A stretch of 54,718 bases of DNA, from NCBI GenBank assembly GCA_013813765.1, contig JACCRC010000201.1, forward strand, positions 1 through 54,718, written 5' to 3'. This document shows, one piece after another, positions 5,639 through 32,570 of the stretch (position 1 is its first letter; every line of letters starts with the position of its first letter). The position numbers and the translations under genes were made by a program. The notes beneath the pieces were generated by a model. It was not told the DNA's origin and did not search any database. It saw only the letters and a list, made by a program, of their open reading frames with translations. This stretch comes from Deltaproteobacteria bacterium (GTDB taxonomy: Bacteria; Myxococcota_A; Polyangia; Haliangiales; Haliangiaceae).

Positions 5639-5701
5639 CACCGACCTGGGGCCATCTAGTTCCAGTGCCGCCAGGCACGTACGTTGCAATTCGATGCTGT
5701 G

Positions 5702-5911
5702 ATGCCAACGACCGAGGAACACGTCACCCGGATTGTCGAGCGGTTGCGCCGTGATCACCCGGATCCGGCCCTGCGCGAGGAGCTCTACGCCGACGGCAAG
5801 CTCGGCGAGTACGTGCGCACGCTCATGAACGGCCACGACGTCAACGATGCGACGATCGAGAAGATCGCCGCGGATGTCCGCGCGGCCGAGGACGGCGCTC
5901 CGCATCACTAG
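5702..5911 (+). CDS. Small hypothetical protein (69 aa)
   Basis: A short acidic helical protein follows grpE by 63 bp. I do not recognise the family. It contains a Leu-Arg-Arg-Asp-His-Pro-Asp-Pro segment and a Tyr-Val-Arg-Thr-Leu-Met-Asn-Gly-His-Asp segment, with no Cys, no signal peptide and no membrane segment. ATG 5702 is preferred over an in-frame TTG at 5684. Codon use matches the neighbours, which supports it being real. Confidence 0.55.
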   Translation: MPTTEEHVTRIVERLRRDHPDPALREELYADGKLGEYVRTLMNGHDVNDATIEKIAADVRAAEDGAPHH

Positions 5912-5950
5912 ATGTGCGACTGCGCAGCAGGTGGGTACGTCCGGACTCGC

Positions 5951-6322: not shown

Positions 6323-6380
6323 GCGCGGTCAGGTCTTTCGACAGGAGCAGGCCCTGGTACTTCCCCCCCTCGCACGACGC

Positions 6381-6797: not shown

Positions 6798-6831
6798 GCA
6801 CCGAGCATAGCGCACCCCCGGGGTTCGTCAC

Positions 6832-7743: not shown

Positions 7744-7804
7744 GCCGATTGGTAACACTACGCGCGTCCCCCACAAACGGACCGGTCCGGGTTACTGCTC
7801 GGGA

Positions 7805-8485: not shown

Positions 8486-8518
8486 TAGTGTGAGCGGGCT
8501 AGCTACAGCTGTGCGACG

Positions 8519-8539
8519 CCGCACGTCCCGGGCGTGCGG
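8519..8539 (+). terminator. GC-rich inverted repeat between the methyltransferase and response-regulator genes
   Basis: Perfect 7-bp arms CCGCACG and CGTGCGG flank a 7-nt loop that itself contains CCCGGG. It lies 33 bp after the methyltransferase stop and about 110 bp before the next gene. There is no T-tract, so it could be a weak terminator or a regulator site. Confidence 0.35.
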
Positions 8540-8651
8540 AATCGCCGCAGTTCTGGCGCCAGCTTCCGCCAACTTCCACTCTCCGAGCGCCACAGACATG
8601 GCGCGCTCCTTGAAACGTGGCAGGAGCGCCTCTCACCAAGGACCCGTTCCG

Positions 8652-10028
8652 ATGCCCAACGTACTGCTGGTTGATGACGATGAAGACACGCGGACCCTGC
8701 TCCACGAGGGGCTGAAGCGGCGTGGGTTCTCCGTCGAGGCGGTCGAGTCCGCTCAGGCGTGTCTCGACTGGGTCCGCGATCACGACGTGGATGTGGTCGT
8801 CACGGACGTCCAGATGCCCGGGATCTCCGGCGTCGAGCTCTGCGAGCAGCTGCGCGAGCGTCACCCGCACGTGCTGGCGATCGTCCTCACCGGCCTCGGG
8901 ACCTATGACACCGCGATCGCGGCCGTTCGCTCCGGTGCGTACGACTATCTCGCCAAGCCGGTGAAGATGGACGCGCTGGTCGTCGCCCTCGAGCGCGCGT
9001 TTGGACACCTGGCGGTCTCCCGCGAGGTACGCCGGCTTCGCCAGGCTGTCGACATCGCCGTTCCGATTCCGTCACTGATCGGATCGAGCCCGGCGATTCG
9101 CGAGATGAGCACGATGATCCGCCGCGTCGCGGATGTCGATGCGACGGTGCTGATCACCGGCGAGAGCGGAACCGGCAAGGAGCTCGTCGCGCGCGCGCTT
9201 CACGACCTGTCGCCGACGCGGCGGACCGCCCCGTTCGTCGCGATCAACTGCGGCGCCGTACCGGCAAACCTGCTCGAGAGCGAGCTGTTCGGCCATGTTC
9301 GCGGGGCGTTCACGGATGCGAAGTCGTCGCGCGCCGGTCTGTTCCTGCAGGCGCAGGGCGGCACGATCTTCCTCGACGAGATCGGCGAGATGCCGCTCGA
9401 GATGCAGGTCAAGCTGCTGCGCGTGCTGCAGCAGCGGACGGTGCGTCCCGTCGGTGGTGATGAGGAGATTCCGTTCGATGCGCGCGTGATCACGGCGACG
9501 AACCGCGATCTGCAGAGCGAAGTCGACGAGGAGCGGTTCCGCGAGGATCTGTTCTACCGGATCAACGTCGTCGCGATCCCCGTTCCTCCGCTGCGCTCGC
9601 GCGGCGCGGACATCCTGCTCCTCGCGAAGCACCTCATCACGAAGGTCGCGAGCCGCGGCAACAAGCCGATTCCGTCGATCAGCAGCGAGGCCTCGCGCAA
9701 GCTGGTGTCCTACGACTGGCCGGGAAACGTTCGCGAGCTGGAGAACTGCATCGAGCGCGCGGTCGCGATGTGCGGCGGCGCCGAGATCGATCTCCCGCAC
9801 CTGCCGACGAAGGTCGTCAATCATCAGCCGGCACGGATCGAGCTCTCGACCGCCGAGCCTGCCGAGATGATCACACTCGACGAGATGGAGCGGCGCTACG
9901 TCCGCCAGGTGCTCGCGAGCGTCAACGGCAACAAGACCCATGCCGCGCGCGTGCTCGGCATCGATCGCCGGTCGCTCTATCGCCGTCTCGAAGCTCCGAC
10001 TACCTCGACGAGCAACGACGCTCCGTAG
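8652..10028 (+). CDS. NtrC-family sigma-54-dependent response regulator
   Basis: The 458-residue protein has three domains. A receiver (~1-120) has the acidic pocket Asp9-Asp10-Asp11, phospho-acceptor Asp52 in Val-Thr-Asp-Val-Gln-Met-Pro, and a Lys in Ala-Lys-Pro-Val. An AAA+ sigma-54 activation domain (~140-370) has Walker A Gly-Glu-Ser-Gly-Thr-Gly-Lys-Glu and Walker B Gly-Gly-Thr-Ile-Phe-Leu-Asp-Glu. A Fis-type helix-turn-helix (~405-450) reads [11 protein letters not shown]. The sigma-54 contact loop reads GAFTDA rather than GAFTGA. No cognate kinase is adjacent. ATG 8652 is chosen because it abuts the receiver's first beta strand. Confidence 0.93.
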
Positions 10029-10055
10029 CGCGCGCGATCGTGCTACGCGTGCGAG

Positions 10056-10952
10056 ATGGCACCGCCTGATCGCAAGCAAGCGAGTGACTTTCCACCCGAG
10101 GTCCTCGAGCTGTTCGACGGCTACGTCCACAACGCGGTGTCGCGTCGCGACTTCCTGACGCGCGCGGCGAAGTACGCTGTCGGCGGAATGACGGCGCTCG
10201 CGATGCTCGAGAGCCTGCAGCCGAACTTCGCGTGGGCGGAGCAAGTCGATAAGTCCGACGAACGGATCAAGACCGAGTACCTCACCTACAAATCACCGAA
10301 GGGCTCGGGCGAGATGAAGGGCTATCTCGCGCGCCCGGCGAAGACGAGGGGCAAGCAGCCCGGTGTCGTCGTGATCCACGAGAACCGCGGCCTCAATCCG
10401 TACATCGAGGACGTGGCGCGGCGGCTCGCGCTGCACGACTACATCGCGTTCGCACCCGATGCCCTCACTCCGCTCGGCGGCTATCCCGGGGACGAGGAGA
10501 AGGCGCGCGAGCTGTTCAGCAAGCTCGACGCGGGCAAGCGCACCGAGGATCTGATCGCCGCCGCCGAGTACGTGAGGGCGCGGCGCGACGTCACGAAGAA
10601 GATCGGAGCCGTCGGTTTCTGCTTCGGCGGCGCGACCTGCAACATGCTCGCGTCGCGGCTCCCGTGGCTCGCCGCGGCGGTGCCGTTCTACGGCTCGGGC
10701 CTGAGCGCCGACGAGGCGAAGACGATCAAGGCCGCGCTCCAGCTTCACTTCGCCGCCACCGACGAGCGCGTCAACGCGACCTGGCCCGCGTACGAAGCCG
10801 CGCTGAAGGCGAACAAGGTCCGCTACGAGGCGCACACGTATCCGAACACGCAGCACGGCTTTCACAACGACACCACGCCGCGCTACGACCAGCAGGCCGC
10901 GAAGCGCGCGTGGGCGCGGACGCTGGGCTTCTTCATGCAGCACCTGCGATGA
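10056..10952 (+). CDS. Tat-exported dienelactone hydrolase family protein
   Basis: The 298-residue protein has a twin-arginine motif Ser-Arg-Arg-Asp-Phe-Leu near residue 30 and a hydrophobic stretch at ~38-52, so export by Tat is likely. The alpha/beta hydrolase core has the His-Glu-Asn-Arg-Gly-Leu-Asn motif, the nucleophile elbow Gly-Phe-Cys-Phe-Gly-Gly near 190 (Cys nucleophile as in carboxymethylenebutenolidase), an Asp near 230, and the final His in Gln-His-Gly-Phe near 267. It should hydrolyse an ester or lactone. The substrate is unknown. It starts 27 bp after the NtrC-type gene and may be cotranscribed with it. Confidence 0.9.
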   Translation: MAPPDRKQASDFPPEVLELFDGYVHNAVSRRDFLTRAAKYAVGGMTALAMLESLQPNFAWAEQVDKSDERIKTEYLTYKSPKGSGEMKGYLARPAKTRGKQPGVVVIHENRGLNPYIEDVARRLALHDYIAFAPDALTPLGGYPGDEEKARELFSKLDAGKRTEDLIAAAEYVRARRDVTKKIGAVGFCFGGATCNMLASRLPWLAAAVPFYGSGLSADEAKTIKAALQLHFAATDERVNATWPAYEAALKANKVRYEAHTYPNTQHGFHNDTTPRYDQQAAKRAWARTLGFFMQHLR

Positions 10953-11384: not shown

Positions 11385-12668
11385 GTGAAAGCCCCCGCTC
11401 GAGGAGGGCAGCTCTTGCTCTGGAGGTTCTCCTTGCTCCCGCGAATCACTCGCGCGGTGGCCGGGCTTGCCGTGACGTTCGTCGCGGTCTGTCCCGTCAC
11501 CACACGCGCTGATCAGCGCGCCGCTCCGGCGTCGCTCGACGAAGCCACGTTCATTCAGCGAGTCCTCGCTGCCTCGCCGCGCCGAACCGCGCTCGACGAT
11601 CGGCGTGCAGCGGCGCGCGCTCAGGTGGGTGCCGCCGCGCAGCTGCCGAATCCGACCGTGAGCTACGAGCGCGAAGCGGTGCCCGGGCTCGACGCCAGCG
11701 ATGACTTCCTGCGGCTCGGGTGGACGATCGATCCGTCGGGCCGACGTGGCTTCGCCGGTGCCGCGGCACGGGCGGGCGCCGAGGCCGAGCGCTTCACCGT
11801 CGAGCGGGACGCGTTCGTCCTCGAGATCGAGGCACGGCTCGCATACCTCGAGGCGGTCCATGCGCGCGAGCTGGTCGCGCGGCTGGATGCTGCGCGCGTA
11901 CCGCTCGCCGATCTGGTGGAGACGCTTCGCTCGCGGTCGCGGCAAGGCGACACGTCGAGCTACGACGCGGAACGTGCCGCGCTCGAGCTCGATGGCCTCG
12001 ATGACGAGCGTGCAACAGCGCGCCGGACGCTGGAGGTCGCGCGGCTGCAGCTCGGTGCGCTGCTCGGCGAGCCTGGGTCCGGCTACGACGCCACCGACGT
12101 GCTCGGCTTGCCCGCGAAGCCGGCGGGCCCATTCGGTGCTCCACACCGTCCCGACGTCGACGCGGCGCTCTCGCGTGCGTCACAGGCGGATCGCGACCTC
12201 GCAGGCGCGCGGCGGGGCTGGATCCCGCGGCTCGAGCTCGTCGCGGGCGTGATGCGATCGGCGAGCGCCGGCGGCGATGGCATCGGCTACATCGTCGGCA
12301 TCGGCGGCGACCTGCCGCTGTTCAATGCGGGTGGCGCCGCCGCCGAACGCAGCCGCGCCGAGGCAAAGCGCTGGCGCAGCGAGGCAGCGGCACTCGCGAG
12401 CGAGGCGCGCGGCGAGAGCGAGGTTTCACGCCGCGACCTCGCGCTGCGGATCGAACAGGCCGAGACGTACCTGACTGGACCTGCAACCCGCGCGGCGGAT
12501 CTGCAGCGTCGCGCGGCGGTCGCGTATCGCGAGGGAGACCGCACGATCCTCGAGCTCCTCGATGTCCAGCGCAGCGCACGACACGCCGCCGTACGTGCGG
12601 TGGAGCTGATCTACGAGGCCCGGCGCGCCGAGCTGACGATGCGCCGCGCGCAGGGGAGGCACCGATGA
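11385..12668 (+). CDS. TolC-family outer-membrane efflux protein (CusC/CzcC-like)
   Basis: The 427-residue protein has a signal sequence (hydrophobic ~24-40) and two long helical repeats rich in Ala, Arg and Glu, typical of the trimeric outer-membrane channel. A Pro-Asn-Pro-x-Val-Ser-Tyr motif is near residue 87, as in TolC-like proteins, and a Leu-Pro-Leu-Phe-Asn-x-Gly-Gly motif is near 310. It should form the outer-membrane duct of the tripartite pump with the next two genes. It overlaps the adaptor gene by 4 nt (ATGA), so the two are translationally coupled. GTG 11385 is used as start. Confidence 0.88.
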   Translation: MKAPARGGQLLLWRFSLLPRITRAVAGLAVTFVAVCPVTTRADQRAAPASLDEATFIQRVLAASPRRTALDDRRAAARAQVGAAAQLPNPTVSYEREAVPGLDASDDFLRLGWTIDPSGRRGFAGAAARAGAEAERFTVERDAFVLEIEARLAYLEAVHARELVARLDAARVPLADLVETLRSRSRQGDTSSYDAERAALELDGLDDERATARRTLEVARLQLGALLGEPGSGYDATDVLGLPAKPAGPFGAPHRPDVDAALSRASQADRDLAGARRGWIPRLELVAGVMRSASAGGDGIGYIVGIGGDLPLFNAGGAAAERSRAEAKRWRSEAAALASEARGESEVSRRDLALRIEQAETYLTGPATRAADLQRRAAVAYREGDRTILELLDVQRSARHAAVRAVELIYEARRAELTMRRAQGRHR

Positions 12669-14182
12669 GGTGGATGCTGATCGCGGCTCTGGTCGCGTGC
12701 GGGGGCCACGCGCACGACGATCACCGTCCTGCCGAGGAACCGGAGGCCGAGTCGATCACGAGGTGGACAGCGACGCACGAGTACTTCGTCGAGCATCCGC
12801 CGTTCGTGGTCGGCCAGCCCTCCGCGCTCGCGGCACATGTCACGCGGCTCGAAGGCCACGCGGCGGTTCGAAGCGGGAAGCTGACCGCGATCCTGACGCC
12901 GAAGACGGGCGCGCCGCTGCAGGCCACCGCGGACGCGCCGGCGCGGCCGGGCATCTTCCGCCCGGAGCTGACAGCCACGGTCGCTGGACCTTGCACGCTC
13001 ACGCTTCGCATCGAGGACGGTGCGGTGCGCGACGAGGTGACCGCCGACTGCACCGTACACGCGGCCGGCGCGAAGCTACCGCCGGCCCCAGAGAAACCAC
13101 CGGGGCGCATCACCTTTCTGAAGGAGACGGCGTGGACGATGGAGTTCGCGACCGGTGTGGTCGCCGAGCGCGAGCTGGTTCCCACGCTGCGCACGACCGG
13201 CGAGATCCGCGCGACCGCGGGCCGCGAGGCGCGGCTCACCGCGACGGCGCACGGACGCGTCGTGTTGGAATCGCCGGTGCCCGTGCTCGGCGCTCAGGTT
13301 TCCGCCGGGCAGGTCCTCGCTCGGATCGTGCCTCAGGTCGAGAACCCAGGTGATCGAGTGACCCTGAGCTCGGACGCTCGCGCCGCACGCGCGGAGCTGT
13401 CGGCGGCGGAGAGTCAGCTCGCGCGATCGGAGCGCCTGTGGGCCGAGCGGACGATTCCGGAGAAGCAGCTCGAGGAGGCAAAGACCCGCGTCGAGATCGC
13501 GCGCGCGAAGCTCGCTGGAGCGCAGGGCAGGGTCGGTCAGTTCGATGCTGGCGCGTCGGGACGCGGCGGTGGTCGGACAGCATTCCAGGTGCGCTCGCCG
13601 CTCGCGGGCACGCTCGTCGCGATCCACGTGTCGTCGGGCCAGACGGTCGAGGATGGCGAGCTACTGTTCACCGTCGTCGATCTCAGCCGCGTCTGGCTTC
13701 ACGCCGATGTGTTCGAGCCCGACATCGGCTCCGTGAAGGCCTCGACGCGCGCCACGTTCCGCGTCGACGGCTTCGACACGCCGCTCTCGATCGCGCCGCC
13801 CGACGGCCGGGTCGTGACGATCGGTCAGCTCGTCGATCCGAAGACGCGCACGGTGCCGATGATCTTCGAGCTCTCGAACCCCGACCGCCAGCTGCGGATC
13901 GGCAGCTTCGCCACGGTCTGGATCGAGACCGGCGCACCGGCGAAGGCGCTCGCGATCCCAGAGACCGCGATGATCGACGACGCCGGCCGCAGGGTGGCCT
14001 ACGTCCAGGTCGAAGGCGAGGCGTTCGAGCGCCGAGCGCTGACGGTCGGGATGCGATCGGGAGGACTCGTGGAGATCAAGGCGGGACTCGCGAAGGGCGA
14101 GCATGTGGTCACGCGCGGCGCGTACGACATCAAGCTCGCGGCCTCGGGCGGCGCGGTGCCGGAGCACGGCCATGCGCACTAG
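12665..14182 (+). CDS. RND efflux periplasmic adaptor (CusB/CzcB-like lipoprotein)
   Basis: The 505-residue protein has a lipobox Ala-Leu-Val-Ala-Cys near residue 12, then a His/Asp stretch. An extra N-terminal beta domain (~40-140) is of the kind seen in heavy-metal adaptors. The lipoyl/barrel-sandwich halves lie at ~185-225 and ~305-350, split by a coiled-coil hairpin (~235-295). A beta-barrel and membrane-proximal domain follow to the C-terminus (Leu-Ala-Lys-Gly-Glu-His-Val-Val). It links the inner-membrane pump to the TolC partner. Spacing to the pump gene is 9 bp. Confidence 0.9.
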   Translation: MRWMLIAALVACGGHAHDDHRPAEEPEAESITRWTATHEYFVEHPPFVVGQPSALAAHVTRLEGHAAVRSGKLTAILTPKTGAPLQATADAPARPGIFRPELTATVAGPCTLTLRIEDGAVRDEVTADCTVHAAGAKLPPAPEKPPGRITFLKETAWTMEFATGVVAERELVPTLRTTGEIRATAGREARLTATAHGRVVLESPVPVLGAQVSAGQVLARIVPQVENPGDRVTLSSDARAARAELSAAESQLARSERLWAERTIPEKQLEEAKTRVEIARAKLAGAQGRVGQFDAGASGRGGGRTAFQVRSPLAGTLVAIHVSSGQTVEDGELLFTVVDLSRVWLHADVFEPDIGSVKASTRATFRVDGFDTPLSIAPPDGRVVTIGQLVDPKTRTVPMIFELSNPDRQLRIGSFATVWIETGAPAKALAIPETAMIDDAGRRVAYVQVEGEAFERRALTVGMRSGGLVEIKAGLAKGEHVVTRGAYDIKLAASGGAVPEHGHAH

Positions 14183-14191
14183 GAGCACGCG

Positions 14192-17100
14192 ATGAAGGTC
14201 CTCGACAACGTCATCCGCTGGTCGATCGCGCGGCGTGGCTTCGTGCTCGTCGTCGCGCTCGCGGTCTCGATCTACGGCGTGTTCGCGGTCGCGCGCATGC
14301 CGATCGACGTGTTCCCGGATCTCACCGCACCGACCGTCACGATCGTCACCGAGGCACACGGCCTCGCGCCCGAGGAGGTCGAGTCGCTGATCACCGCCCC
14401 GATCGAGACCGCGATGAACGGTCAGACCCAGGTGCGGCGGGTCCGTTCGGCGTCGGGCGTCGGCATCTCGATCATCTGGGTGGAGTTCGGCTGGGGCACC
14501 GAGATGGTACGCGCGCGCCAGCTCGTCACCGAGAAGCTACCGCTCGCGCAGGCGCAGCTGCCGCCGGACGTGCCGGCGCCGCAGCTCGCGCCGGTGTCAT
14601 CCGTGATGGGCGAGATCATGTTCGTGGGGCTGCGCAGCCAGGCGCATCCCGGCCACGAGGTGCGCGATACGGCGGACAAGACCGTGCGCAGGCGCCTGCT
14701 CGGTGTACTGGGCGTCGCACAGGTCGTTCCGATCGGCGGCGGCGTGCGTCAGTATCAGGTCGAGGTCGACCCCGATCGCCTGCGCCGGCACGGGGTCTCG
14801 CTCGACGAGGTGGCGCACGCGCTCGAGACGTCGAACCAGAACAGCACCGGCGGCTTCGCCGTCCGCGGACCGCAGCAAAATCTGGTTCGCGGCCTCGGCC
14901 GCCTGCGCTCGACCGAGGACCTCGAGCGCGTCGTGGTCGCGTCCCGCGAGGGCACCTCGATCACGGTCGGCCAAGTCGCGAAGGTGCAGATCGGTCCTGC
15001 GGTGAGGTTCGGCGAAGGCTCGGTCGACGGCACGCAGGCGGTCGTCATGGCGATCTCGAAGCAGCCGGGGACGAACACGATCGCGTTGACTGCGGCGATC
15101 GACCGCGAGCTCGACGCGATCGAGCGCGACCTGCCCAAGGGGATGAAGCTCGAGCGCCAGCTGTTCCGGCAGGCCGAGTTCATCGACACGGCCGTGGATA
15201 ACGTCGCCAAGGCGCTTCGCGACGGCGCGATCCTCGTCGTCGTCATCATCTTTCTGTTCCTGGTGAACGTGCGCGCGACCGCGATCTCGGCGATCGCGCT
15301 CCCGATCTCGCTGCTCGTCGCCGTGATCGTCCTCGAGTGGCTCGATGCCGGCATCAACACGATGACGCTCGGCGGCCTCACGATCGCGATCGGCGCGCTC
15401 GTCGACGACGCGATCATCGACGTCGAGAACGTCGTGCGGCGGTTGCGCGAGAACAGCGCGCGACCCGAAGCGGATCGGCGCCCCGCGTCCGAGGTCATCT
15501 ACGAGGCGTCCCGCGAGGTCCGTGGGTCGATCGTCTTCGCCACGATCATCGTGATGATGGTGTTCATCCCCGTGTTCTTCCTCACCGGCGTCGAGGGGCG
15601 GCTCCTGTTCCCGCTCGGCTTCGCATACCTCGTCGCGATCTTCGCCTCGCTGATCGTCGCGCTGACCGTCACGCCGGCGCTCTGTGCGGTGATGCTACCG
15701 AGGCTCTCGACGCATCCGCACGGCGACGCCTTCGTCGTGCGCGGTCTCAAACGAGGCTACGGGCGGGCACTGGCCTGGACACTGCGCCACGGCCGCGTGA
15801 CCGTGATCGCGTCCCTGGTCATGGCCGCGGGCGCGGCGGCCATGATCCCGTTCCTCGGCCGCTCGTTCTTGCCGGAGTTCAACGAGGGCGCGCTCACGAT
15901 CAACGCCGTCACGCTACCCGGCACGTCGCTCGCGGAGTCCGATGCACGCGGGCGGCGGCTCGAGAAGATCTTGCTCGCGCTGCCGGAGGTGGTCTCGACC
16001 GCCCGGCGCACCGGCCGCGCCGAGCTCGACGAGCACGCGCAGGATGTCAACGCGACGGAGATCGAGGTCCGGCTGCGCCGCTCGGAGCGCTCGCGCGAGG
16101 AGTTCCTCGACGAAGTGCGACGCGAGCTCGCGCGGGTGCCCGGGATGAGCATCACGATCGGCCAGCCTATCTCGCACCGCATCGACCACATGCTGTCGGG
16201 CACGCGCGCGGGCATCGCCGTGAAGCTGTTCGGCGAGGATCTGTTCACGATGCGGCTCTACGCCGAGCAGATCCGCCGGGTGATGGAGCAAGTCGACGGC
16301 GCGGTCGACGTCGCGATCGAGCAGCAGATCGACATCCCGCAGGTCGTGGTCGACTTCGATCTCGATCGCGTGGCCCGCGCCGGCACGCACCGCGGCGAGC
16401 TCGCCGAAACGATGGAGGTGGCGCTCGCCGGCAAGAAGGTGACGCAGGTGCTCGAGGGCCAGCGGATGTACGACGTGGTGGTCCGCTACCCGAACGTCGA
16501 ACGCGACGTCGAGGACCTGCGCGCGCTGCCGATCGATGTTCCCGGGCACGGGCTCTTGCCGCTCGGCATGCTCGCGAACGTACGTCGCGACGTCGGCCCG
16601 AACACGATCGTGCGCGAAAACACGCAGCGCAAGATGGTGATCATGGCGAACGTGAGCGGCCGCGACCTCGGCTCGGTCGTCGGCGACATCGAGGAACGGG
16701 TCGCGCGCGAGGTCCAGCTGCCCGAGGGCTACCACGTCGTCTACGGCGGGCAGTTCGAGAGCCAGGAGCGTGCGAGCAGGACGCTCCTCCTGCTCGGTCT
16801 CGCGGTGATCGTGGGTATCTTCCTCGTGCTGCAGCTCGCGTTCGATTCCGCGGCGCGTGCACTCGTGATCATGGCGAACCTCCCGCTCGCACTGATCGGG
16901 GGCGTCGTGGCGGTGTTCGTGACGGATCGCATCCTCTCGATCGGCTCGCTCGTCGGGTTCATCACGCTGTTCGGGATCGCGACGCGCAACGGGATCATGC
17001 TGATCTCGCACTACGACCACGTTCGCGAGGTCGAGGGCGCGTCGCTCGAGGACGCCGTGTACCGGGGGTCGCTCGAGCGACTGAGTCCCGTGCTGATGAC

Positions 17101-17305
17101 GGCGCTGTGCGCTGGCCTCGCGCTGGTCCCACTCGTGATCGCGGCCGGCGAGCCCGGCAACGAGATCCAGGCACCGATGGGCGTGGTGATCCTCGGTGGA
17201 CTCCTCACCTCGACGCTGTTGAACCTGTTCGTGGTCCCGGTGCTCTACGCATGGTCATCGCGGCAACTCGAGGAACGGGCGCCTGCGTCACAGCTGCCTC
17301 CTTGA
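14192..17305 (+). CDS. Heavy-metal-type RND efflux pump (CusA/CzcA family)
   Basis: The 1037-residue length and layout fit HME-RND proton antiporters: TM1 near 15-30, a large periplasmic loop, a TM bundle (~340-520), a second loop, and TMs at ~860-1020. TM4 contains Gly-Ala-Leu-Val-Asp-Asp-Ala-Ile-Ile-Asp-Val-Glu-Asn-Val, the acidic proton-relay region of this class. The pump exports a metal cation from cytoplasm or periplasm through the adjacent adaptor and TolC partner. The metal (Cu/Ag versus Zn/Co/Cd) is not resolved by the motifs I can see. No metalloregulator is adjacent. Confidence 0.93.
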   Translation: MKVLDNVIRWSIARRGFVLVVALAVSIYGVFAVARMPIDVFPDLTAPTVTIVTEAHGLAPEEVESLITAPIETAMNGQTQVRRVRSASGVGISIIWVEFGWGTEMVRARQLVTEKLPLAQAQLPPDVPAPQLAPVSSVMGEIMFVGLRSQAHPGHEVRDTADKTVRRRLLGVLGVAQVVPIGGGVRQYQVEVDPDRLRRHGVSLDEVAHALETSNQNSTGGFAVRGPQQNLVRGLGRLRSTEDLERVVVASREGTSITVGQVAKVQIGPAVRFGEGSVDGTQAVVMAISKQPGTNTIALTAAIDRELDAIERDLPKGMKLERQLFRQAEFIDTAVDNVAKALRDGAILVVVIIFLFLVNVRATAISAIALPISLLVAVIVLEWLDAGINTMTLGGLTIAIGALVDDAIIDVENVVRRLRENSARPEADRRPASEVIYEASREVRGSIVFATIIVMMVFIPVFFLTGVEGRLLFPLGFAYLVAIFASLIVALTVTPALCAVMLPRLSTHPHGDAFVVRGLKRGYGRALAWTLRHGRVTVIASLVMAAGAAAMIPFLGRSFLPEFNEGALTINAVTLPGTSLAESDARGRRLEKILLALPEVVSTARRTGRAELDEHAQDVNATEIEVRLRRSERSREEFLDEVRRELARVPGMSITIGQPISHRIDHMLSGTRAGIAVKLFGEDLFTMRLYAEQIRRVMEQVDGAVDVAIEQQIDIPQVVVDFDLDRVARAGTHRGELAETMEVALAGKKVTQVLEGQRMYDVVVRYPNVERDVEDLRALPIDVPGHGLLPLGMLANVRRDVGPNTIVRENTQRKMVIMANVSGRDLGSVVGDIEERVAREVQLPEGYHVVYGGQFESQERASRTLLLLGLAVIVGIFLVLQLAFDSAARALVIMANLPLALIGGVVAVFVTDRILSIGSLVGFITLFGIATRNGIMLISHYDHVREVEGASLEDAVYRGSLERLSPVLMTALCAGLALVPLVIAAGEPGNEIQAPMGVVILGGLLTSTLLNLFVVPVLYAWSSRQLEERAPASQLPP

Positions 17306-24649: not shown

Positions 24650-24678
24650 ATCACCGGGGAGAATATCTCCCCGGTGAT
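24650..24678 (+). promoter_or_regulatory. Perfect 13-bp inverted repeat covering the ribosome-binding region and start codon of the TerB-like gene
   Basis: Arms ATCACCGGGGAGA (24650-24662) and TCTCCCCGGTGAT (24666-24678) are perfectly complementary with a 3-nt ATA loop. The GTG start codon (24674-24676) lies in the right arm. The only Shine-Dalgarno-like sequence, GGGGAG at 24656-24661, lies in the left arm. In RNA both would be sequestered; in DNA it could be a dimer operator. No T-tract follows, so it is not a classical terminator. Confidence 0.6.
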
Positions 24679-25417
24679 CCTGTTCATCATCATCTACGGG
24701 TCGTACGGGATCACGTACACGAAGGGGCAGCCGGGACAGTTTCACTGCCCGTGCTGCGCGACGACCTGCGCGTACCGCCATCGCCGGGTGCGGCGCTTCT
24801 TCCACATCTTCTTCGTGCCGCTGATCCCACTGACGCTCGCGGGCGAGTACGTCGAGTGTGGCCAGTGCAAGGGCACCTACAAGCTCGACGTTCTCTCGAT
24901 CGCGAAGGCGCTCGCAGCCGGGACCGCACCGCCGAACGTGACGGAGTCGCAGCGCTGCGTGCGTCGCGTCCTCGCGATGATGACGCTCGCCGACGGTCGG
25001 GTGCAGGACTCCGAGATCGATGCGATCACGCAGTTCCTCGCGTACGCCGAGAATCGGTTCGTCGCGCGAGAAGAGGTCGCGGCCGAGCTCGAGGCCGCGA
25101 AGCGCGAGCCGGTCGATATCGAGCAGTACTGCCGGCAGATGATGGGGTTCTTGAACGAGCAGGGCAGGCAGGACGTGCTCAAGGCGGCCCAGCTGGTCGC
25201 GGCCGCGGATGGCAACGTGGATCTCAGCGAGCAGAAGCTACTCGAGCGGATCGGCATCGCGCTCGGCATGCGCCCCGCGCAGGTCTCGACCAACCTCGCC
25301 GCGCCACCGCGGAGGCTGAACGCGCCGTTCTGTCCGCGCTGCGGCTTTGCGGGCCGGTGGATCCAGGAGCACCAGTGCTGGGGCTGCGATAACTGCCGCG
25401 CCCAGATCCCGGTCTAG
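24674..25417 (+). CDS. Zinc-ribbon and TerB-like domain protein
   Basis: The 247-residue protein starts with a short hydrophobic stretch. A zinc ribbon follows (Cys-Pro-Cys-Cys near 25 and Cys-Gly-Gln-Cys near 62) with a hydrophobic segment between the pairs at ~43-55. A TerB-like helical domain (~90-205) contains the acidic Ala-Asp-Gly repeats Leu-Ala-Asp-Gly-Arg-Val and Ala-Ala-Asp-Gly-Asn-Val-Asp. A second zinc ribbon closes the protein (Cys-Pro-Arg-Cys and Cys-Asp-Asn-Cys). TerB domains bind metal and associate with membrane stress systems; the role here is unknown. The GTG start lies inside a palindrome, so translation may be gated. Confidence 0.8.
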   Translation: MILFIIIYGSYGITYTKGQPGQFHCPCCATTCAYRHRRVRRFFHIFFVPLIPLTLAGEYVECGQCKGTYKLDVLSIAKALAAGTAPPNVTESQRCVRRVLAMMTLADGRVQDSEIDAITQFLAYAENRFVAREEVAAELEAAKREPVDIEQYCRQMMGFLNEQGRQDVLKAAQLVAAADGNVDLSEQKLLERIGIALGMRPAQVSTNLAAPPRRLNAPFCPRCGFAGRWIQEHQCWGCDNCRAQIPV

Positions 25418-25433: not shown

Positions 25434-27191
25434 TCACCGGACGGTGATCGTTCCGCGGTCCATATCCATCCCACACGCGAACACGACCGATGCGGGCGCA
25501 TCGACGCGGAACGGGACCTCGACGGCCTTCTCGAACGGCAGGACCTCGTCGACGCGGGCACCGCTCGGCATGGTGAAGTGCACGTCGGTGCTGCACGTGG
25601 ACTGGGAGCGCCGGGTGAACACGAGCGTGACGGGCTCCCCGCGCGCGACCTCGATCTGCGCGGGCACGAAGCCGGCATCCGTGACGGAGATCTCGATCCG
25701 GCGGGCGCCTGCGACCGCGACGGGGCGGGCTGGGGCGCCGACGAGCTTCTCGACCTCGCCGGTGAGCACGAGCGGCGGCGCCGACTTCTCCCACAGAAGC
25801 TTCCCATCGCGACCGAACACCTTGAGGTGCGGCAGCGTGTACGCCCCGACGTACTTCTTCGAGGCGGGCGAGTCATCGTCGACGACGTTCACCTTGCGCA
25901 CCGCGACGTCGTTCGGATGGCGGCGCACGATCTCCGCGAGCTCGCGATCGACGATGCCGCACGGCTTGCACCAGGTCGCCCAGAAGTCGAACACGGTGAT
26001 CTTGCCCGGCACCGGCTCGAGCGGAACGGCGCTGCCGTCGTTCGTGATGTCCACCTTGTCGAGTCCGGTCCAGTCGACGGGCCCTTCCTCGTGGCCATGG
26101 CCGTGCTCGTCTCCGTGGTCATCACCGTGCGCGTGGTCATGACCGTGCTCCTCGCCCTCGTGGCCGTGCTCGTCCTCTTTGCCCTCGAACACGCGGATGC
26201 TCGTGCCGACCGAGACGCCGAGGAACACGGATGAATCGAGCTGGCCGCCGACGACGTGTGTGTAGACCGGGACCTTGAGCGTCGCACTTGCGTGCCAGTC
26301 ATCCGTCAACCGGAACGTCGTCTCGAGCCCGGTGAGGACATCGGTTCGACCGATGTTTCCCTCGTCGGTGTGGGTGACGCCGCTCCACTTCTCCGCGGTC
26401 TCGTGCTGCGCCTCCGCGGTGAGGCGGAACCGCCACCGCTTCGTGCCGAGCCCCGATGCCGCGCCGATGCCGCCGGCGTAGCGGTCGCCAGGCTGATAGC
26501 CGTGGCCGTTCTCGTAGAGTGACTGCACCGTCAGGGCGAACGCGTCGAGGCGAACCGGTCCGACGATCCGCGCGGCGTCGACGCCCGCCAGCGGTTGAAA
26601 TGTTCCGGTGCCGAACTGCGAGTGCTCGTGCGCCTGGCCGATGTCACCGAGCGCGAACGGATCCTCCTCGGTGCGGCCGAGCGGCAACGACAGGCCCAGG
26701 CGTACAGCGAGGGTGACGCCGCCGGCACGCATCGCCGCGCGAGCGACGACGGATGGATCTCCGGGCCCGACGAGGGTCTTGTTGTTGTGATGGATGAACG
26801 GGTCCTCGATCGCGACGGTCTGGTTGTTTTCGTCCGCGTAGCGGATCGAGGTCTTGAAGATCCGCAGCGGAACGACCGCGCCGATCGCGAGCCAAGACTT
26901 CACGCCGAGCTCGCCGGAGAGGCGGAGCTCGGTGTTAAGGATGTCCTGGTGGTGGAACACGGTCATCGGCCCGACGCCGGTCACCGTCTCGATCGCATCG
27001 TGCGACGCGACCGCGGTGCTCCCGATCGAGCTGAGGTCGAGCGTGAGCCGACCGGGTTCGATCTCCGTGGTCTCTTGCCCCCCGACCGGGAGGTTGGGAT
27101 TGCTTCAACCCGCTCAACCACCGGCGAGCGCGGCGGGGGTGTCCCACGCGATCACGGGCAGCATCAGCAGCGCCAGGCGCAGCGGGGACAT
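25434..27191 (-). CDS. Candidate selenoprotein: outer-membrane barrel + His-rich linker + thioredoxin + cupredoxin fusion with U-x-x-U
   Basis: Seen: ATG 27191 opens a signal peptide (Met-Ser-Pro-Leu-Arg-Leu-Ala, then Pro-Ala-Ala-Leu-Ala). Two in-frame TGA codons follow at 27114-27116 and 27105-27107. The frame then runs open to 25434, giving a 585-residue product. The junction reads GGUAGUSNPNLP if TGA is selenocysteine (Sec26, Sec29). After it come a PF13557-like barrel (~70-335), a His/Asp/Glu-rich linker (~337-369), a TlpA-type thioredoxin domain with Trp-Cys407-Lys-Pro-Cys411, and an EfeO-like cupredoxin (~499-585) with Cys573-Gly-Met-Asp-Met. Without readthrough the protein has no signal peptide. 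Inferred: a metal or redox-handling outer-membrane protein. It follows the kinase gene by 50 bp. Confidence 0.75.
27078..27093 (-). promoter_or_regulatory. Candidate bacterial SECIS hairpin with GGUC loop
   Basis: On the coding strand CCUCCC-GGUC-GGGGGG forms a 6-bp stem (one G-U pair) with loop GGUC. The loop starts 18 nt after the second UGA and 27 nt after the first, both within the usual bacterial SECIS distance. The first two loop bases are GG, and GGUC is the core of the E. coli fdhF SECIS loop as I recall it. One hairpin could serve both UGA codons. Confidence 0.65.
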
Positions 27192-27241: not shown

Positions 27242-28831
27242 CTAGTCGAGCAACCGCGACAGCGTCTCCTGCACGCGCGCGATGGTGACTGGCTTGACGA
27301 GGTGTGCGTCGAAACCGGCGCGTGTGGTCTTCTCGCGATCACTAGCCTGCCCGTAGCCGGTCACCGCGATCAAGCGCACCTCCGGGATGCGGCTCCGCAC
27401 CTCACCGGCCAGCTCGTACCCGTCCATCACCGGAAGTCCGATGTCGAGGATCGCGACGACGGGCCGGAACGTCTCGAGCGCGGTGAGCGCTGCGGGACCG
27501 TCGTGCGCGATCCGCACGTCGTAGCTGAAGGCACCGAGAACATCCGCGAGGAGCTCTGCAGCGTCGCGGTTGTCGTCGACGACGAGGATCTGTGCGTGCT
27601 TTCCGACGCTGAGCGGCGGCTGGACCTCGGCGGGCGCGGCGATGCTGGGCGCGCCGTCGTGGAACGGCAGCTCGACGATGAACGAGCTGCCCTTGCCGAC
27701 GCCCTCGCTCGAAGCGCGAACGCAACCGGCGTGGGCGTTGACGAGGCTGCGCACGATCGCGAGGCCGAGCCCGAGGCCGCCGGCTGCGCGATCGATACCT
27801 TGTGGCACTTGCATGAACCGCTCGAACACCCTGTCGAGAAGCGCTGGATCGATGCCGATGCCCCGATCTTCGACGGTCACGCGCACGAGCGTTCCGGCGT
27901 GTTCGGCGATGATCCGGATCCGCGAGCCGGCGTCGGAGTACTTTGCAGCGTTCGTGATGAGGTTGCTGAACACCTGTGCGAGGCGAGCGGGGTCGCCATC
28001 GATGGTGAGACCTTCGGCGGCCACCGCGATCTCCAGCCTGGTTTGTTTCTGTTCGAGGAGGGGCCGCGCCATCTCGACCGCACGCGTGATGACCGTTCCG
28101 ATCTCCAGCACCTCGCGGCGAAGATCGACCTTGCCGCGCGTGATCCTCGAGACATCCAGCAGATCGTCGACGAGCCGCTGCAGGTGGCCGACCTGACGCT
28201 CGAGCACCTCGTGCACGCGGGTCGTCGCGTTGTTCATGCGCAGCACCTGGAGCGCCGTGACGATGGGTGCGAGCGGATTGCGAAGCTCGTGGCCGAGCAT
28301 GGCGAGGAACTCGTCCTTTGCGCGGGTCGCCTGCTGGGCCTCGTTGCGAGCAAGATCGAGCGCTCGGGCGAGCGCATCGGAGCGCTCCGCTTGCTGCTTC
28401 GCTACCGCAAGATCACCCCGAGCGACGAGGGTGTCCCGTTCCGCGCGGAGCAGGGCCGTGAGCAACGGCGAGAGCCGGTCGAGCGCCTCGTGAAGCTCGG
28501 AACAATCATCCTCGCGCCCGACCAGCACGATGACGACGCCCGGATACGCGTACGCGACCGCGGGGGCCGTCTCCGTCGCCGTCGGAAACGCAACGGGCCC
28601 ACGGAACGTGCCGGGGTTCCTGCAGCGATCGAGCAGATCGCGCCAGCCTCGGCTGGACGGCAGCGTGCACGCGAAGCCGGTGGCGGGCAGGAGCTTCCCT
28701 TCCATGTCGGGGTGCGGAACGAACACGTACGCGCCGCGGCCACCGCATTGCTCCGCAATCCGAGTCAGGGCAGATCGGCGGTCGCCGAGCGCTCCCACGT
28801 GCGCGAGCAACGTGACAAGGTCATCGAGCAT
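27242..28831 (-). CDS. Hybrid sensor histidine kinase (sensor-HisKA-HATPase-REC)
   Basis: The 529-residue protein has an N-terminal ~125-residue putative sensor region I cannot name with certainty (GAF-sized, with cysteines near 29, 55, 70 and 110). A coiled coil follows (~130-172), then a HisKA domain with phospho-acceptor His181 in Gly-His-Glu-Leu-Arg-Asn-Pro-Leu-Ala-Pro. The HATPase has an Asn in Leu-Ile-Thr-Asn-Ala-Ala-Lys-Tyr and Gly-Leu-Gly-Leu-Gly-Leu-Ala. A C-terminal receiver has Asp in Ile-Leu-Asp-Ile-Gly-Leu-Pro. No membrane segment is seen, so it should be cytosolic. Its start overlaps the FIST stop by one base (TGATG), so the two are coupled. Confidence 0.9.
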   Translation of the reverse strand: MLDDLVTLLAHVGALGDRRSALTRIAEQCGGRGAYVFVPHPDMEGKLLPATGFACTLPSSRGWRDLLDRCRNPGTFRGPVAFPTATETAPAVAYAYPGVVIVLVGREDDCSELHEALDRLSPLLTALLRAERDTLVARGDLAVAKQQAERSDALARALDLARNEAQQATRAKDEFLAMLGHELRNPLAPIVTALQVLRMNNATTRVHEVLERQVGHLQRLVDDLLDVSRITRGKVDLRREVLEIGTVITRAVEMARPLLEQKQTRLEIAVAAEGLTIDGDPARLAQVFSNLITNAAKYSDAGSRIRIIAEHAGTLVRVTVEDRGIGIDPALLDRVFERFMQVPQGIDRAAGGLGLGLAIVRSLVNAHAGCVRASSEGVGKGSSFIVELPFHDGAPSIAAPAEVQPPLSVGKHAQILVVDDNRDAAELLADVLGAFSYDVRIAHDGPAALTALETFRPVVAILDIGLPVMDGYELAGEVRSRIPEVRLIAVTGYGQASDREKTTRAGFDAHLVKPVTIARVQETLSRLLD

Positions 28832-29997
28832 CAGTCGGGGAACGCCAGCACCACGGCCGTGCAGTTATGAAACCCGCCGAACTGACCCTCGGCCCGCGCG
28901 ATCTGACCGTACGTATTGCAACCGACGAGCGTCGTGCCACCGAGCGCCTTCTGCACGGCCTCCAGCTCGAACGCGAACATGTCACCGAGCCGAAGGCGGG
29001 TCGCGACGCAGTCGAAGAACAGCGCCGCAGACGGCGTTCCGCCGCGCAACTTTCGAACTGCATCCTCGGTTGCGCTTGCGGCCGCCGCGCTCGCGGATGC
29101 CGCGCTCGTCTTCATGATGTGCACGCGCGCGCCGGAGGGAATCTCGGCGGCGCAGTTGACCGCGCCATCCGCATCGATCGACAGCGGGACACGCAACCGG
29201 TACCCCGCCGGAGTTTCGATGCCGAGGATGTTGTGGAGGAAGAAGGGCAGTGGCGCACTGCGATCGATCTGCTGGCTGGTTGCAGCCGCGTGACGCTCGA
29301 AGGCGTCGATGGCTGGGAACCCGTCGAGGCTGATCAGACGCGAACCCTGGACCTCGGTCACGCGCAATGGCTCGCTCGCAGGCTTCCAGCCGTGCTGTAC
29401 GCCGATGCCGACCGGCTTGCGCGAGAGGATCTCGAGTCCGACCACTGCGTCGGTCGCGGTGCGCGTCCCGCAGAACACGTGCGTCTTCGAGAACTGCGCG
29501 TCGTCGCCGGCTCCGCCACCGGCGAACTCGTACGCTCCGGCGGTGACCATCGTCAGCTGTTCGATCAGATCGTCGGCGTGGCCCGCAAGCGCGTCGGTCA
29601 TGATCAGCGCCGCGCGGTGCGGATACTCGGAGCTCTCCGCGCCCTTGAAGCCGGCCACGAGCTGACGCGCCGCGGCGGAGCGATCCGCACCGACGCCGGT
29701 GCCGAGGCTCGCTGCGAACACCATGTCGGTCGACCGAACGGCGAGCGCGCAGGCCAGGCCGGCGCCGCTGTGGTCACCGGTGAACTCGCCGGCGGAGGAC
29801 GAGCCCACCAGCGCGCCGGGTTGGCAGGTCTCCGACAGAGCGTGAAGCAATGCTCCGTGGTCATACTTGCTGGAGGCGAAGACCACGACAGCATCCGGCC
29901 GCTCGCCGTGCATCCCCGCTCGGATCTGCTTTCCGAGATCTTGTCCTGCAGCCGAGCTATCGGCTTCAGTCGTGAAGGCGGCGGCGGTGATGGTCAT
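28831..29997 (-). CDS. FIST-domain sensory protein (FIST_N + FIST_C)
   Basis: The 388-residue protein matches the FIST family. FIST_N has a Val-Gly-Ser-Ser-Ser-Ala-Gly-Glu-Phe motif near 63 and Gly-Gly-Gly-Ala-Gly-Asp-Asp near 155. FIST_C follows, with Pro-Leu-Pro-Phe-Phe-Leu-His-Asn near 250 and a Gly-Cys-Asn-Thr-Tyr-Gly-Gln-Ile near 358. FIST domains are proposed to sense small ligands for associated kinases or chemoreceptors. Direct coupling to the next histidine kinase gene supports that role here. No enzyme motif or membrane segment is visible. Confidence 0.9.
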   Translation of the reverse strand: MTITAAAFTTEADSSAAGQDLGKQIRAGMHGERPDAVVVFASSKYDHGALLHALSETCQPGALVGSSSAGEFTGDHSGAGLACALAVRSTDMVFAASLGTGVGADRSAAARQLVAGFKGAESSEYPHRAALIMTDALAGHADDLIEQLTMVTAGAYEFAGGGAGDDAQFSKTHVFCGTRTATDAVVGLEILSRKPVGIGVQHGWKPASEPLRVTEVQGSRLISLDGFPAIDAFERHAAATSQQIDRSAPLPFFLHNILGIETPAGYRLRVPLSIDADGAVNCAAEIPSGARVHIMKTSAASASAAAASATEDAVRKLRGGTPSAALFFDCVATRLRLGDMFAFELEAVQKALGGTTLVGCNTYGQIARAEGQFGGFHNCTAVVLAFPD

Positions 29998-30075
29998 CGC
30001 GGTCCACAGCGTGCAGAAGTCACGCCGAAAACGGATGGTGCCTCGCGGTTGTTCGCGCGGGGAGCGCCGACCCGC

Positions 30076-30723
30076 TCAGCGCCCGGTCGCGCACCTTGCG
30101 GACGATCGGGAGCGGGCGAACGCCGCGTGCGTGGCGTACCACTGCCGCTGCGCACGAAACGCCTCGTTCGCGGCGAGCACGATCGACGCCGGCGGATAGG
30201 TATGGGCGTACGCGCAGAGCGCCGCTCCGAACGCGCGGAAGCGTGCGCCGGGCGTGTCGCCGTACGCTGCGAGATACGAGGTGCCCGGTAGGATCTCGTA
30301 GCCGAGGGTGCGCACCACGTGACGGCGAATCAGTCCCGCGAGGAGAGTGTGGCGCTCGAGCACGAACATCCAGCCAAGCGCCTGGGCCGCGTTGCGGATC
30401 GTGAGCGTCGACACCTTCGGCATCGGGATGATGTCCTCCGACGTCAGGCCGAGGACGACCAGATCGTGATGAAGTCGCGCGGTCTTGGCGCGGTCGCGGA
30501 CGAACGCCGCATCGAGGTCGACGACCTTGGCCAGCGCCGCCTCGACCTCGACCTCGAAGCCGTAGATCCGCGTGAGGAATGACCGGTAGTCGTCGACCGT
30601 CTCGATATCGAGCGCGGTAAGGCGATCCTCATCGGCGGCAGCGTGGTGATTGCTGGTCTCGAGCGCCACCCGCACCAGCATCCACGGGGGTGTCGTCGCT
30701 ATCGCCACCGGCGCCTTTGCCAT
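30076..30723 (-). CDS. Heme oxygenase-like protein (bacterial BphO/PigA type), atypical distal helix
   Basis: The 215-residue protein has the layout of bacterial biliverdin-producing heme oxygenases: an N-terminal helix with Glu-Thr-Ser-Asn-His26-His27 where the proximal heme His lies, and a mid-protein Gly-Trp-Met-Phe-Val-Leu-Glu-Arg-His-Thr segment. The latter aligns with the family's Gly-Ala-Leu-Tyr-Val-Leu-Glu-Gly-Ser-Thr. The distal glycines of that motif are replaced by Arg-His and Leu, so catalysis is doubtful. A phytochrome partner is not seen in the window. It lies 131 bp after the hybrid kinase and 78 bp before the FIST gene on the same strand, suggesting a role in one signalling unit. 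Confidence 0.68.
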   Translation of the reverse strand: MAKAPVAIATTPPWMLVRVALETSNHHAAADEDRLTALDIETVDDYRSFLTRIYGFEVEVEAALAKVVDLDAAFVRDRAKTARLHHDLVVLGLTSEDIIPMPKVSTLTIRNAAQALGWMFVLERHTLLAGLIRRHVVRTLGYEILPGTSYLAAYGDTPGARFRAFGAALCAYAHTYPPASIVLAANEAFRAQRQWYATHAAFARSRSSARCATGR

Positions 30724-30810
30724 CACGTCCAAGCTGGTGTGCAAGAGCACGGCCCATCGTGGAGGCGCCTATGCGTAAGGCACCGTACAGTCCGATACGA
30801 ACGCCGGCAT

Positions 30811-30822
30811 CACGTATACGTG
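30811..30822. promoter_or_regulatory. 12-bp perfect palindrome upstream of the heme-oxygenase-like gene
   Basis: CACGTATACGTG lies 88 bp upstream of the heme-oxygenase-like start, in the gap after the hybrid kinase gene. It has the shape of a dimeric regulator site. No matching copy was noticed beside a related gene, so this is a weak call. Confidence 0.3.
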
Positions 30823-30854
30823 CCCCACGGCGCGGCGTGGCGAAATTGACGCTG

Positions 30855-32570
30855 TCAGGACAGAACGTCGAGCTGGTTGGCGACGCAGGCGAAGATCGCG
30901 GCAGCGGTCGCCGGCTTCACGAGGTGCGCGTGAAATCCCGCGCGGCGTGTTCGCTCCAGATCGGCGACCTCGCCGTACCCGGTCAATGCGACCAGGCGGG
31001 TCCGTAGATCCGGGCACTCGGTCCGCAGCTGCTCGACGACGGAGATCCCGTCGAGACCCGGAAGGCCGAGATCGACCAGCGCGATATCCGGCCGGTGCTC
31101 GCGGATCAACTTCAAGCCCGTTACCCCATCGCATGCCGAGAGCACCTCGTAGCCGCGGGCGCGAAGTAGATCGGCGAGGAGCTCGCGCGCGTCGTCGTTG
31201 TCGTCGATCACGATCGTACGCACCGTCGTGGGGTCGCGCACGGGATCGGCGACCGACATCATGCCGCCCGTGCGCGCGCGAGGGAGCAGGGCGGCGGGCG
31301 AGCTGGCGAGTGGGATCTGGATCTCGAACGCGCTGCCGCGATCGCGGCCGCCGCTGCTGACCGAGATCGAACCGCGGTGCATCTCGACGAGCCGGCGGGC
31401 GAGTGCGAGCCCGAGGCCCAGGCCACCCGAGCCGTCGGAGCGCACGCGCTCCTGGACGAACATGTTGAAGATCGAGTCCTGGAGCTCGAGTGGAATGCCG
31501 ATGCCGCTATCGGTCACTCGGACTAGCGCGGAATCTCCCGCCTCCGTACAGGTCACGACGATGCGCCCGCCCGGTGCGGTGTACCGCGCGGCGTTGTTGA
31601 CGAGGTTGCAGATCACCTGCGTGATGCGAACCGTGTCGACGACGACCGGCACGCGCCCGCGCGGCGGCGCGAACACCAGCGAGTGCCGGCGCTCGTCGAT
31701 CAATGGCTGGCTCGTCGCGATCGCGGCCGTGATCACTTCGACAAGATCGACGTCCTCGGGCCGCAGCTCGATCTTGTCTGCCTTGATCCGCGAGACGTCG
31801 AGCAGGTCATCGACGAGCCGCGTGAGTACGCTGGTCTGCCGATCGAGGATCTCGAGGAGCTTGGGGCTCAGAGGCTTCTCGGGCTCGGTCCGGATCAGAT
31901 CCACGCACGAGCGAACCGGGGCGAGCGGGTTACGGAGCTCGTGCGCGAGGATCGCGAGGAAGCTGTCCTTGCGGCGATCGATCTCGGCGAGCGCTGCGTT
32001 CAGCCTGGCGAGCTCTTGCTTCGCCGAGTGCTCGGCATCGCGCTCGCGGCGCAACGCCGCGGTCTCGTAGTCGCGGCGGCGATTCTCGAAGTCACGCTCC
32101 ATGCGGATCGCCGCGAGCTGCTCGGTTCGATCCTGCAGCGTGACGAAGACCGCTGCTTTTGCGCGGAGCACCTCGGGAATGATCGGCTTCTTCAAGAAGT
32201 CGAAGCCGCCGAGTGCGTACGCGCGCAATGCCGCAGCCTCGTCGTGATCCTGTCCCGTCGTGAAGATGATCGGGAGGTGCTGCGTGCGTTCGCGCGAACG
32301 GATCCAGCGCGCGGTCTCGTAGCCGTCCATGCCCGGCATGTTGACGTCGAGGAGGACGAGCGCGAACTCCTGGTCCGCGAGACGCTCGAGTGCCTCGCGC
32401 CCCGATCGCGCCGTCACGATCACGCGGTCGAGTGGTGCGAGCGCGGCCTCGGCGGCCTTCAGATCCGCGTCGACGTTGTCGACCACGAGGATCTGCCGGA
32501 TGCTGATGACCGGACGAGTGTCGACTTCGTCGAGCTCGACCGGAATCGCCGCGTCCGCGCTCGATGACAT
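30855..32570 (-). CDS. Hybrid histidine kinase (REC-HisKA-HATPase-REC)
   Basis: The 571-residue protein has an N-terminal receiver (~25-145; phospho-acceptor Asp75 in Leu-Leu-Asp-Val-Asn-Met-Pro, conserved Lys in Lys-Lys-Pro-Ile). A coiled coil (~150-200) leads to HisKA with His210 in Ala-His-Glu-Leu-Arg-Asn-Pro-Leu-Ala-Pro. The HATPase has Leu-Val-Asn-Asn-Ala-Ala-Arg-Tyr and Gly-Leu-Gly-Leu-Gly-Leu-Ala. A second receiver closes the protein (Asp in Leu-Val-Asp-Leu-Gly-Leu-Pro). It has no sensor or membrane domain, so it probably takes its input through the first receiver from another kinase. It is the first gene of a same-strand run through the FIST and kinase genes. Confidence 0.92.
   Translation of the reverse strand: MSSSADAAIPVELDEVDTRPVISIRQILVVDNVDADLKAAEAALAPLDRVIVTARSGREALERLADQEFALVLLDVNMPGMDGYETARWIRSRERTQHLPIIFTTGQDHDEAAALRAYALGGFDFLKKPIIPEVLRAKAAVFVTLQDRTEQLAAIRMERDFENRRRDYETAALRRERDAEHSAKQELARLNAALAEIDRRKDSFLAILAHELRNPLAPVRSCVDLIRTEPEKPLSPKLLEILDRQTSVLTRLVDDLLDVSRIKADKIELRPEDVDLVEVITAAIATSQPLIDERRHSLVFAPPRGRVPVVVDTVRITQVICNLVNNAARYTAPGGRIVVTCTEAGDSALVRVTDSGIGIPLELQDSIFNMFVQERVRSDGSGGLGLGLALARRLVEMHRGSISVSSGGRDRGSAFEIQIPLASSPAALLPRARTGGMMSVADPVRDPTTVRTIVIDDNDDARELLADLLRARGYEVLSACDGVTGLKLIREHRPDIALVDLGLPGLDGISVVEQLRTECPDLRTRLVALTGYGEVADLERTRRAGFHAHLVKPATAAAIFACVANQLDVLS

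Follow-up and report, generated by a model that had tools for sequence, protein, structure and literature searches.

The window analysed here comprises positions 1 to 54,718 of contig JACCRC010000201.1 (assembly GCA_013813765.1) and carries a selenoprotein gene on its reverse strand at positions 25434..27191. The gene very probably encodes a member of a new family of outer-membrane channel proteins, found in myxobacteria-like hosts, with two selenocysteine (Sec, U) residues at the start of the mature chain. Reading from ATG 27191, the frame extends over 585 codons to the terminal TGA at 25436-25434 and contains exactly two internal TGAs and no TAA or TAG. The predicted protein consists, in this order, of a signal peptide, a UxxU motif, an outer-membrane barrel, a His-rich linker, a thioredoxin domain and a cupredoxin domain.

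Domain organisation of the encoded protein

The amino-terminus reads MSPLRLALLMLPVIAWDTPAALA, followed by GG-U-AG-U-SNPNLPVGG. The signal peptide (residues 1-23, 27123..27191, on the reverse strand like all features of the gene) ends in ALA, directly before GGUAGU, and the sequence suggests cleavage after this ALA. The first UGA is codon 26 (Sec26, 27114..27116) and the second is codon 29 (Sec29, 27105..27107). A first-pass annotation of the window had described a signal peptide in frame with the large protein and split from it only by two TGAs, and this is what the 585-codon frame contains. Under the standard code, an open reading frame (ORF) begins only at GTG 26984 (516 amino acids), downstream of the signal peptide, so that the export signal is indeed lost without readthrough, as the annotation had pointed out.

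The signal peptide and the motif are followed by a barrel (approximately residues 40-335, 26187..27074), for which structure prediction gives a COG4313-like fold. It is predicted to be 12-stranded, as in the COG4313/PF13557 family. The PF13557 score of the window protein is 16.4 bits, for a gathering cut-off of 22, and 10 of the 24 barrel sequences scanned match this model at an E-value of 0.01 or better, the best at 7.4e-11. A sequence search of the PDB with the barrel retrieved only FapF (E-values 0.34 and 0.45), and a tblastn search of plasmids with it gave no match. The linker that comes next (approximately residues 340-371, 26079..26174) is rich in His, Asp and Glu and was modelled with low confidence. 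The thioredoxin domain is recognised by Pfam (PF00085) over residues 397-460 (25812..26003), at 31.1 bits for a cut-off of 23.5, and has a WCxPC pattern, WCKPC, at residues 407-411. The chain ends in a Cupredoxin_1 domain (Pfam, residues 493-584, 25440..25715), which is CupA-like and contains the C...CxMxM ligand set as C533...C573-G-M575-D-M577; Cu(I) binding by these residues is predicted. The domain composition given by the first-pass annotation is matched by Pfam for the thioredoxin and cupredoxin, and by the predicted structure overall. Taken together, export and the barrel fold are well supported.

Conservation and decoding of the two UGA codons

Relatives were collected from two sets of genomes. 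Of 95 relatives searched at the protein level, 94 matched somewhere, many through the thioredoxin or cupredoxin part alone. Among 377 genomes from the same phylum as the window, searched with a profile, 110 gave a match at 1e-6. The alignment retained, including the window, has 105 rows: 76 UxxU, 18 CxxU, 8 CxxC and 3 R/QxxC paralogues, 94 rows having at least one Sec. The first position is U in 76 rows, C in 26 and R or Q in 3; the second is U in 94 and C in 11. The rows were collected with a pattern that admitted C, U, R or Q at the first of these positions and only U or C at the second. When loci were located by profile instead of by motif, the same pattern was found, with no residue other than U or C at the second position. 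Members with UGA codons are present in 87 genomes including that of the window (27 from the relatives and 60 from the phylum set), three of which can be recognised as Myxococcales or Deltaproteobacteria assemblies. As judged from the aligned sequences, conservation of the two motif positions is far beyond chance.

In the eight CxxC loci, the motif is CAGC, CPGC or CAAC and directly precedes (S/Q/G/R)NP(N/S/T)LP, which places Cys at both UGA positions; Cys in relatives at these positions is what the first-pass annotation had proposed to look for in support of Sec. A hydrophobic 8-mer lies within 20 residues upstream of the motif in 104 of the 105 rows, and an AxA-like site, loosely defined, is within seven residues of it in all of them. 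Third codon positions are the most variable on both sides of the UGAs. In a tree of 104 rows, the window protein belongs to a six-member UxxU clade (support 100/99). CxxC requires at least two changes on this tree.

Several loci were left out of these counts. They comprise one without its amino-terminus (L158), two UxxU loci with an altered flank (L204 and L209), a UVGC locus (L208), two QATC paralogues (L127 and L128), L164 (the same place as L132), the decayed copy L134, duplicates (L095 and L015-L017, which are copies of the window, L096, L098 and L107), and, among the profile matches listed, 36 whose aligned part starts at model position 38 or later. Locus L208 (G339:C117) is of the UxxC type, and all four Sec/Cys arrangements are thus present. 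The genome of the window itself contains a Sec-free paralogue (L127, G000:C518:8500-12500), a barrel plus thioredoxin with QATC-SNPGVP, in which Cys is kept at the second position only, while L134 (G010:C66:1-4500) has an RGGU motif and an altered downstream frame, in a genome that has selA. Among the loci, L211-L222 form a divergent CxxU subfamily (CSAU, CATU and similar) with its own clade in family f33.

The genome of the window contains the complete Sec machinery for which a search had been suggested: selA (523 bits), selB (288.5 bits), selC, the gene of tRNA-Sec (72.7 bits, cut-off 47), and selD (320 bits). Among the 27 UGA genomes of the relatives set, 25 gave a selA match (one partial), and of the remaining two, one has selB and the other tRNA-Sec, both over the cut-off. 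In the phylum set, 55 of the 60 UGA genomes have selA (two partial) and two more have tRNA-Sec over the cut-off, whereas only one of the eight CxxC genomes has selA, the same one that has tRNA-Sec over the cut-off (selA in 1/8 against 55/60, Fisher p=6e-6, with genomes that are not independent of each other). In one UGA genome (G192), region 4645-9762 of locus L242 has a barrel-thioredoxin gene with a UPAU motif some 0.2 kb ahead of selA; selB comes next, and all three genes have the same orientation. Another genome, 96% complete (G365), has two CxxU copies (L149 and L223) and tRNA-Sec, and selA was not found in it.

A hairpin of the selenocysteine insertion sequence (SECIS) type, CCUCCC-GGUC-GGGGGG, is located at 27078..27093, at a distance of 17 nt after the second UGA and 26 nt after the first. 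It has six base pairs, a GGUC loop and an energy of -9.4 kcal/mol. With the SECIS model taken from section 5 of PMC13188914 and its energy limit of -7.5 kcal/mol, the hairpin is acceptable for both UGAs, and one hairpin could therefore serve the two. All elements of the model are present in 59 of the 94 Sec-containing members. The residues after the second UGA are much the same in these 94 rows: Leu (93 rows), next to it Pro or Gln (94) and, with one residue in between, Gly (92). Paired hairpin positions number 587 in the 94 rows, against 368 ± 13 after synonymous recoding (maximum 406 in 500 recodings). To enter the covariation test, a row had to have CCG-GTC, a Leu codon of the CT type and a Gly codon of the GG type, as 42 rows do. 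The third bases of Leu and Gly can pair in all 42, the maximum upon shuffling being 33 in 100,000, and the pairs are CTC-GGG (23 rows), CTG-GGC (11), CTT-GGA (6) and two G-U pairs. As both third positions are synonymous, protein constraint does not explain the pairing; kinship of the rows inflates its significance, but three Watson-Crick pair types exist regardless of it. The Gly codon is GGG or GGA in all 29 Sec rows of the first set (background 0.23) and in 78 of 92 in the full set, most of the others being the coupled CTG-GGC rows.

Some results weigh against decoding by this hairpin, or against decoding as Sec at all. The limit of -7.5 kcal/mol is missed by 35 of the 94 hairpins, and the window has a rival fold that is better by 1.8 kcal/mol over 42 nt. 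The recoding test is less clean than the figure for the Sec rows suggests, since the Cys set also scores high: its 12 rows have 42 paired positions where recoding gives 32.4 ± 3.8 (maximum in 500 recodings, also 42). One of these 12 rows is a spurious CACC match in L190 that is absent from the 105 rows. Plain minimum free energy z-scores against recoding are weak, and the Sec rows (mean -0.65, n=29) do no better than the Cys rows (-0.77, n=4), but plain folding is not decisive, because GC-rich sequences fold equally well after recoding and the 3' arm can slide along the run of G. It is the specific hairpin and covariation tests that carry the case for a SECIS, which is one drawn from aligned sequences. 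Finally, three UGA genomes that are 77-87% complete (G320, G354 and G244) have neither selA nor tRNA-Sec over the cut-off, selB not having been searched for in them.

If the UGAs did not encode Sec, the gene could be a pseudogene, the codons could specify another amino acid or be assembly errors, or translation could start at the internal GTG 26984, the only place from which a standard-code ORF runs. The exchange of UGA with Cys, the conservation of UGA in 87 genomes, the presence of the Sec genes, the synonymous constraint on the hairpin and the variability of third codon positions, the highest on either side of the UGAs, make any of these very improbable. TGA also acts as an ordinary stop in the window, because five of nine neighbouring Pfam-annotated genes end in it; that these genes lack internal TGAs is a consequence of the ORF-calling method itself. 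An assembly error, which the first-pass annotation had named as a risk, is excluded, as the same UGAs occur in different genomes. On the grounds of the UGA/Cys exchange, the 87 genomes, the hairpin and the Sec genes, we rejected a pseudogene, a frameshift, another amino acid at the UGAs and a start within the frame. By comparison of sequences, Sec at both UGAs is close to certain.

Thioredoxin partners, metal neighbourhoods and proposed mechanism

Of the 105 members, 87 have a thioredoxin, which is fused to the barrel in 36 and encoded immediately upstream in 51; the neighbouring ones were counted with a profile itself trained on thioredoxins of the family. Some of these partners carry a heavy-metal-associated (HMA) domain: nine of the 15 upstream thioredoxins with at least 900 nt of sequence according to a custom profile, and five of ten scanned with the Pfam HMA model (one just below the cut-off). 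At locus L227 (G043, 4687-10709), merR, a merT-HMA fusion, an HMA-thioredoxin and a standalone barrel with USGU follow one another in this order, and beyond them lies a P-type ATPase gene on the other strand, which gives this barrel a soft-metal setting. A second copy in the same genome is near CusB/HlyD-type, RND and P-type ATPase genes, and the CxxC form in G409 adjoins the gene of a Cad-family cadmium-resistance transporter. The window itself contains a heavy-metal efflux cluster at 11385-17305, made up of an OEP, a CusB/HlyD-type adaptor and a CusA/CzcA-type RND protein.

The explanation that we favour, and hold to be reasonably probable as a whole, is that of an exported double selenoprotein forming a channel with a thioredoxin-maintained soft-metal site. 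First, SelB and tRNA-Sec would decode both UGAs as Sec, a step that sequence comparison makes almost certain, and the single SECIS-type hairpin in range of both codons may serve the two. Next, the signal peptide would be cleaved and the protein exported to become a COG4313-like channel in the outer membrane, its UxxU pair lying three and six residues from the mature amino-terminus on a flexible segment; export and a channel of this type with an amino-terminal UxxU are highly probable. This segment may face the periplasm or be tucked into the lumen of the barrel, an arrangement seen in the solved structure of a COG4313 channel. Lastly, the paired selenolates would bind a soft metal with high affinity, in all likelihood Cu(I) rather than another metal, and perhaps Hg(II) in some relatives. 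The fused or neighbouring thioredoxin would keep them reduced, and the CupA-like cupredoxin and His-rich linker would receive or deliver the metal. We consider this last step, a site for probably Cu(I) at the channel, somewhat likelier than its contrary. The role of the protein at the outer membrane would then be to bind and reduce soft metals and to gate them.

Against this proposal, 17 of the 105 members have no adjacent thioredoxin, at least five of them where the available sequence ends, and one further member is not assessable. Six sequences served to train the custom HMA profile, and of the nine thioredoxins that it detected, three coincide in place with members of this training set. The Cus-type cluster of the window is 8 kb away from the selenoprotein gene, and no metal-transport family was found among the few neighbours scanned at L242, L236, L228 and L246. 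The link to metals is one we infer from neighbours and domains, and the UxxU tail has a predicted local distance difference test (pLDDT) score below 50 in the predicted structure, its location in the lumen being conjectural.

The thioredoxin partners of the 87 members would also fit a metal-free thiol/selenol relay, in which electrons pass from thioredoxin to a UxxU diselenide at the channel mouth and on to an incoming electrophile, peroxide or partner protein. Most uncharacterised selenoproteins are regarded as redox proteins in the part of PMC13188914 consulted. This relay leaves unexplained the HMA domains on nine of 15 upstream thioredoxins, the CupA-like cupredoxin, the His-rich linkers and the mer-type cluster, and we consider it unlikely, although it deserves consideration. 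Of the redox-active Sec pair put forward in the first-pass annotation, the pair at the mature amino-terminus stands, while its redox activity stays an inference, the context pointing at least equally to soft-metal binding. The protein might also be a gated uptake channel, its amino-terminus plugging the barrel as in COG4313 and its UxxU acting as a latch, closed by a diselenide or a bridging metal, that thioredoxin would open to let a hydrophobic or small solute through. The low pLDDT of the tail and a purely conjectural substrate make this improbable.

Two hybrid histidine kinases and a FIST sensor protein are encoded at 27242-32570, upstream of the selenoprotein gene and on the same strand, the nearest of these genes ending 51 nt before its ATG. 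A gene for a zinc-ribbon and TerB-domain protein (24674-25417) is convergent with it.

Relation to known families

The predicted barrel resembles that of the COG4313/Phenol_MetA_deg (PF13557) channel Pput2725 (PDB entry 4rl8), with a sequence identity of 10%. The parts of the Pput2725 literature consulted mention neither a thioredoxin or cupredoxin fusion nor Sec, all three of which are predicted for the window protein. In the solved COG4313 channel the amino-terminus is folded into the barrel lumen, a placement that may also apply to the window tail. The cupredoxin has its equivalent in CupA/CopA of Streptococcus pneumoniae (PDB entries 4f2e and 4f2f), but in the window protein it is the carboxy-terminal domain of an exported barrel fusion.

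Paired Sec is shared with the MerP/HMA-like UxxU family NF041115, called metal-binding in Table 1 of PMC13188914, but the UxxU of the window protein is a tail ahead of a barrel. NF041115 is absent from the matches of the whole window protein and matches only the HMA part of a neighbour, at locus L226, below the cut-off. The same table has two outer-membrane families with one Sec each, the GSU2204-type MtrB/PioB family NF041027 and the TonB receptor FCYXU NF049945, which are separate from the window family and lack a UxxU tail. No such protein is among the 119 families of this table, and no NCBIfam model (June 2026) matches any of the 24 barrel sequences at 0.01. The first-pass annotation had thought the architecture undescribed, and no description was found in the literature searched, most subscription journals and preprints being outside its coverage; nor was a paper on Myxococcota selenoproteins found, judged by title. 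Further sources, used in part, are PMC9312934, PMC2398784, PMC12013277, PMC4493636 and PMC5646241. By mechanism, then, the window protein is a bacterial selenoprotein, and its family is previously undescribed in the sources searched.

Such proteins are probably misannotated, because standard ORF calling of the window gene strips the export signal. The finding suggests a use of selenium at the outer membrane, for the handling of copper or other soft metals. In its widest form, which we put forward tentatively and at slightly less than even chances, there would be a widespread selenium-dependent outer-membrane system: a channel with a UxxU selenolate pair on its amino-terminal plug, kept in working order by its own thioredoxin, would capture copper or another soft metal at the cell surface, reduce it or gate it, and a single SECIS would serve both UGAs. 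If correct, a large and mostly double-Sec selenoprotein family would be added to the Myxococcota, the outer membrane would become a place of selenolate or diselenide chemistry, and one candidate SECIS would go with two UGAs spaced by nine nucleotides. With natural UxxU, CxxU and CxxC versions at hand, the benefit of selenium would be directly testable.
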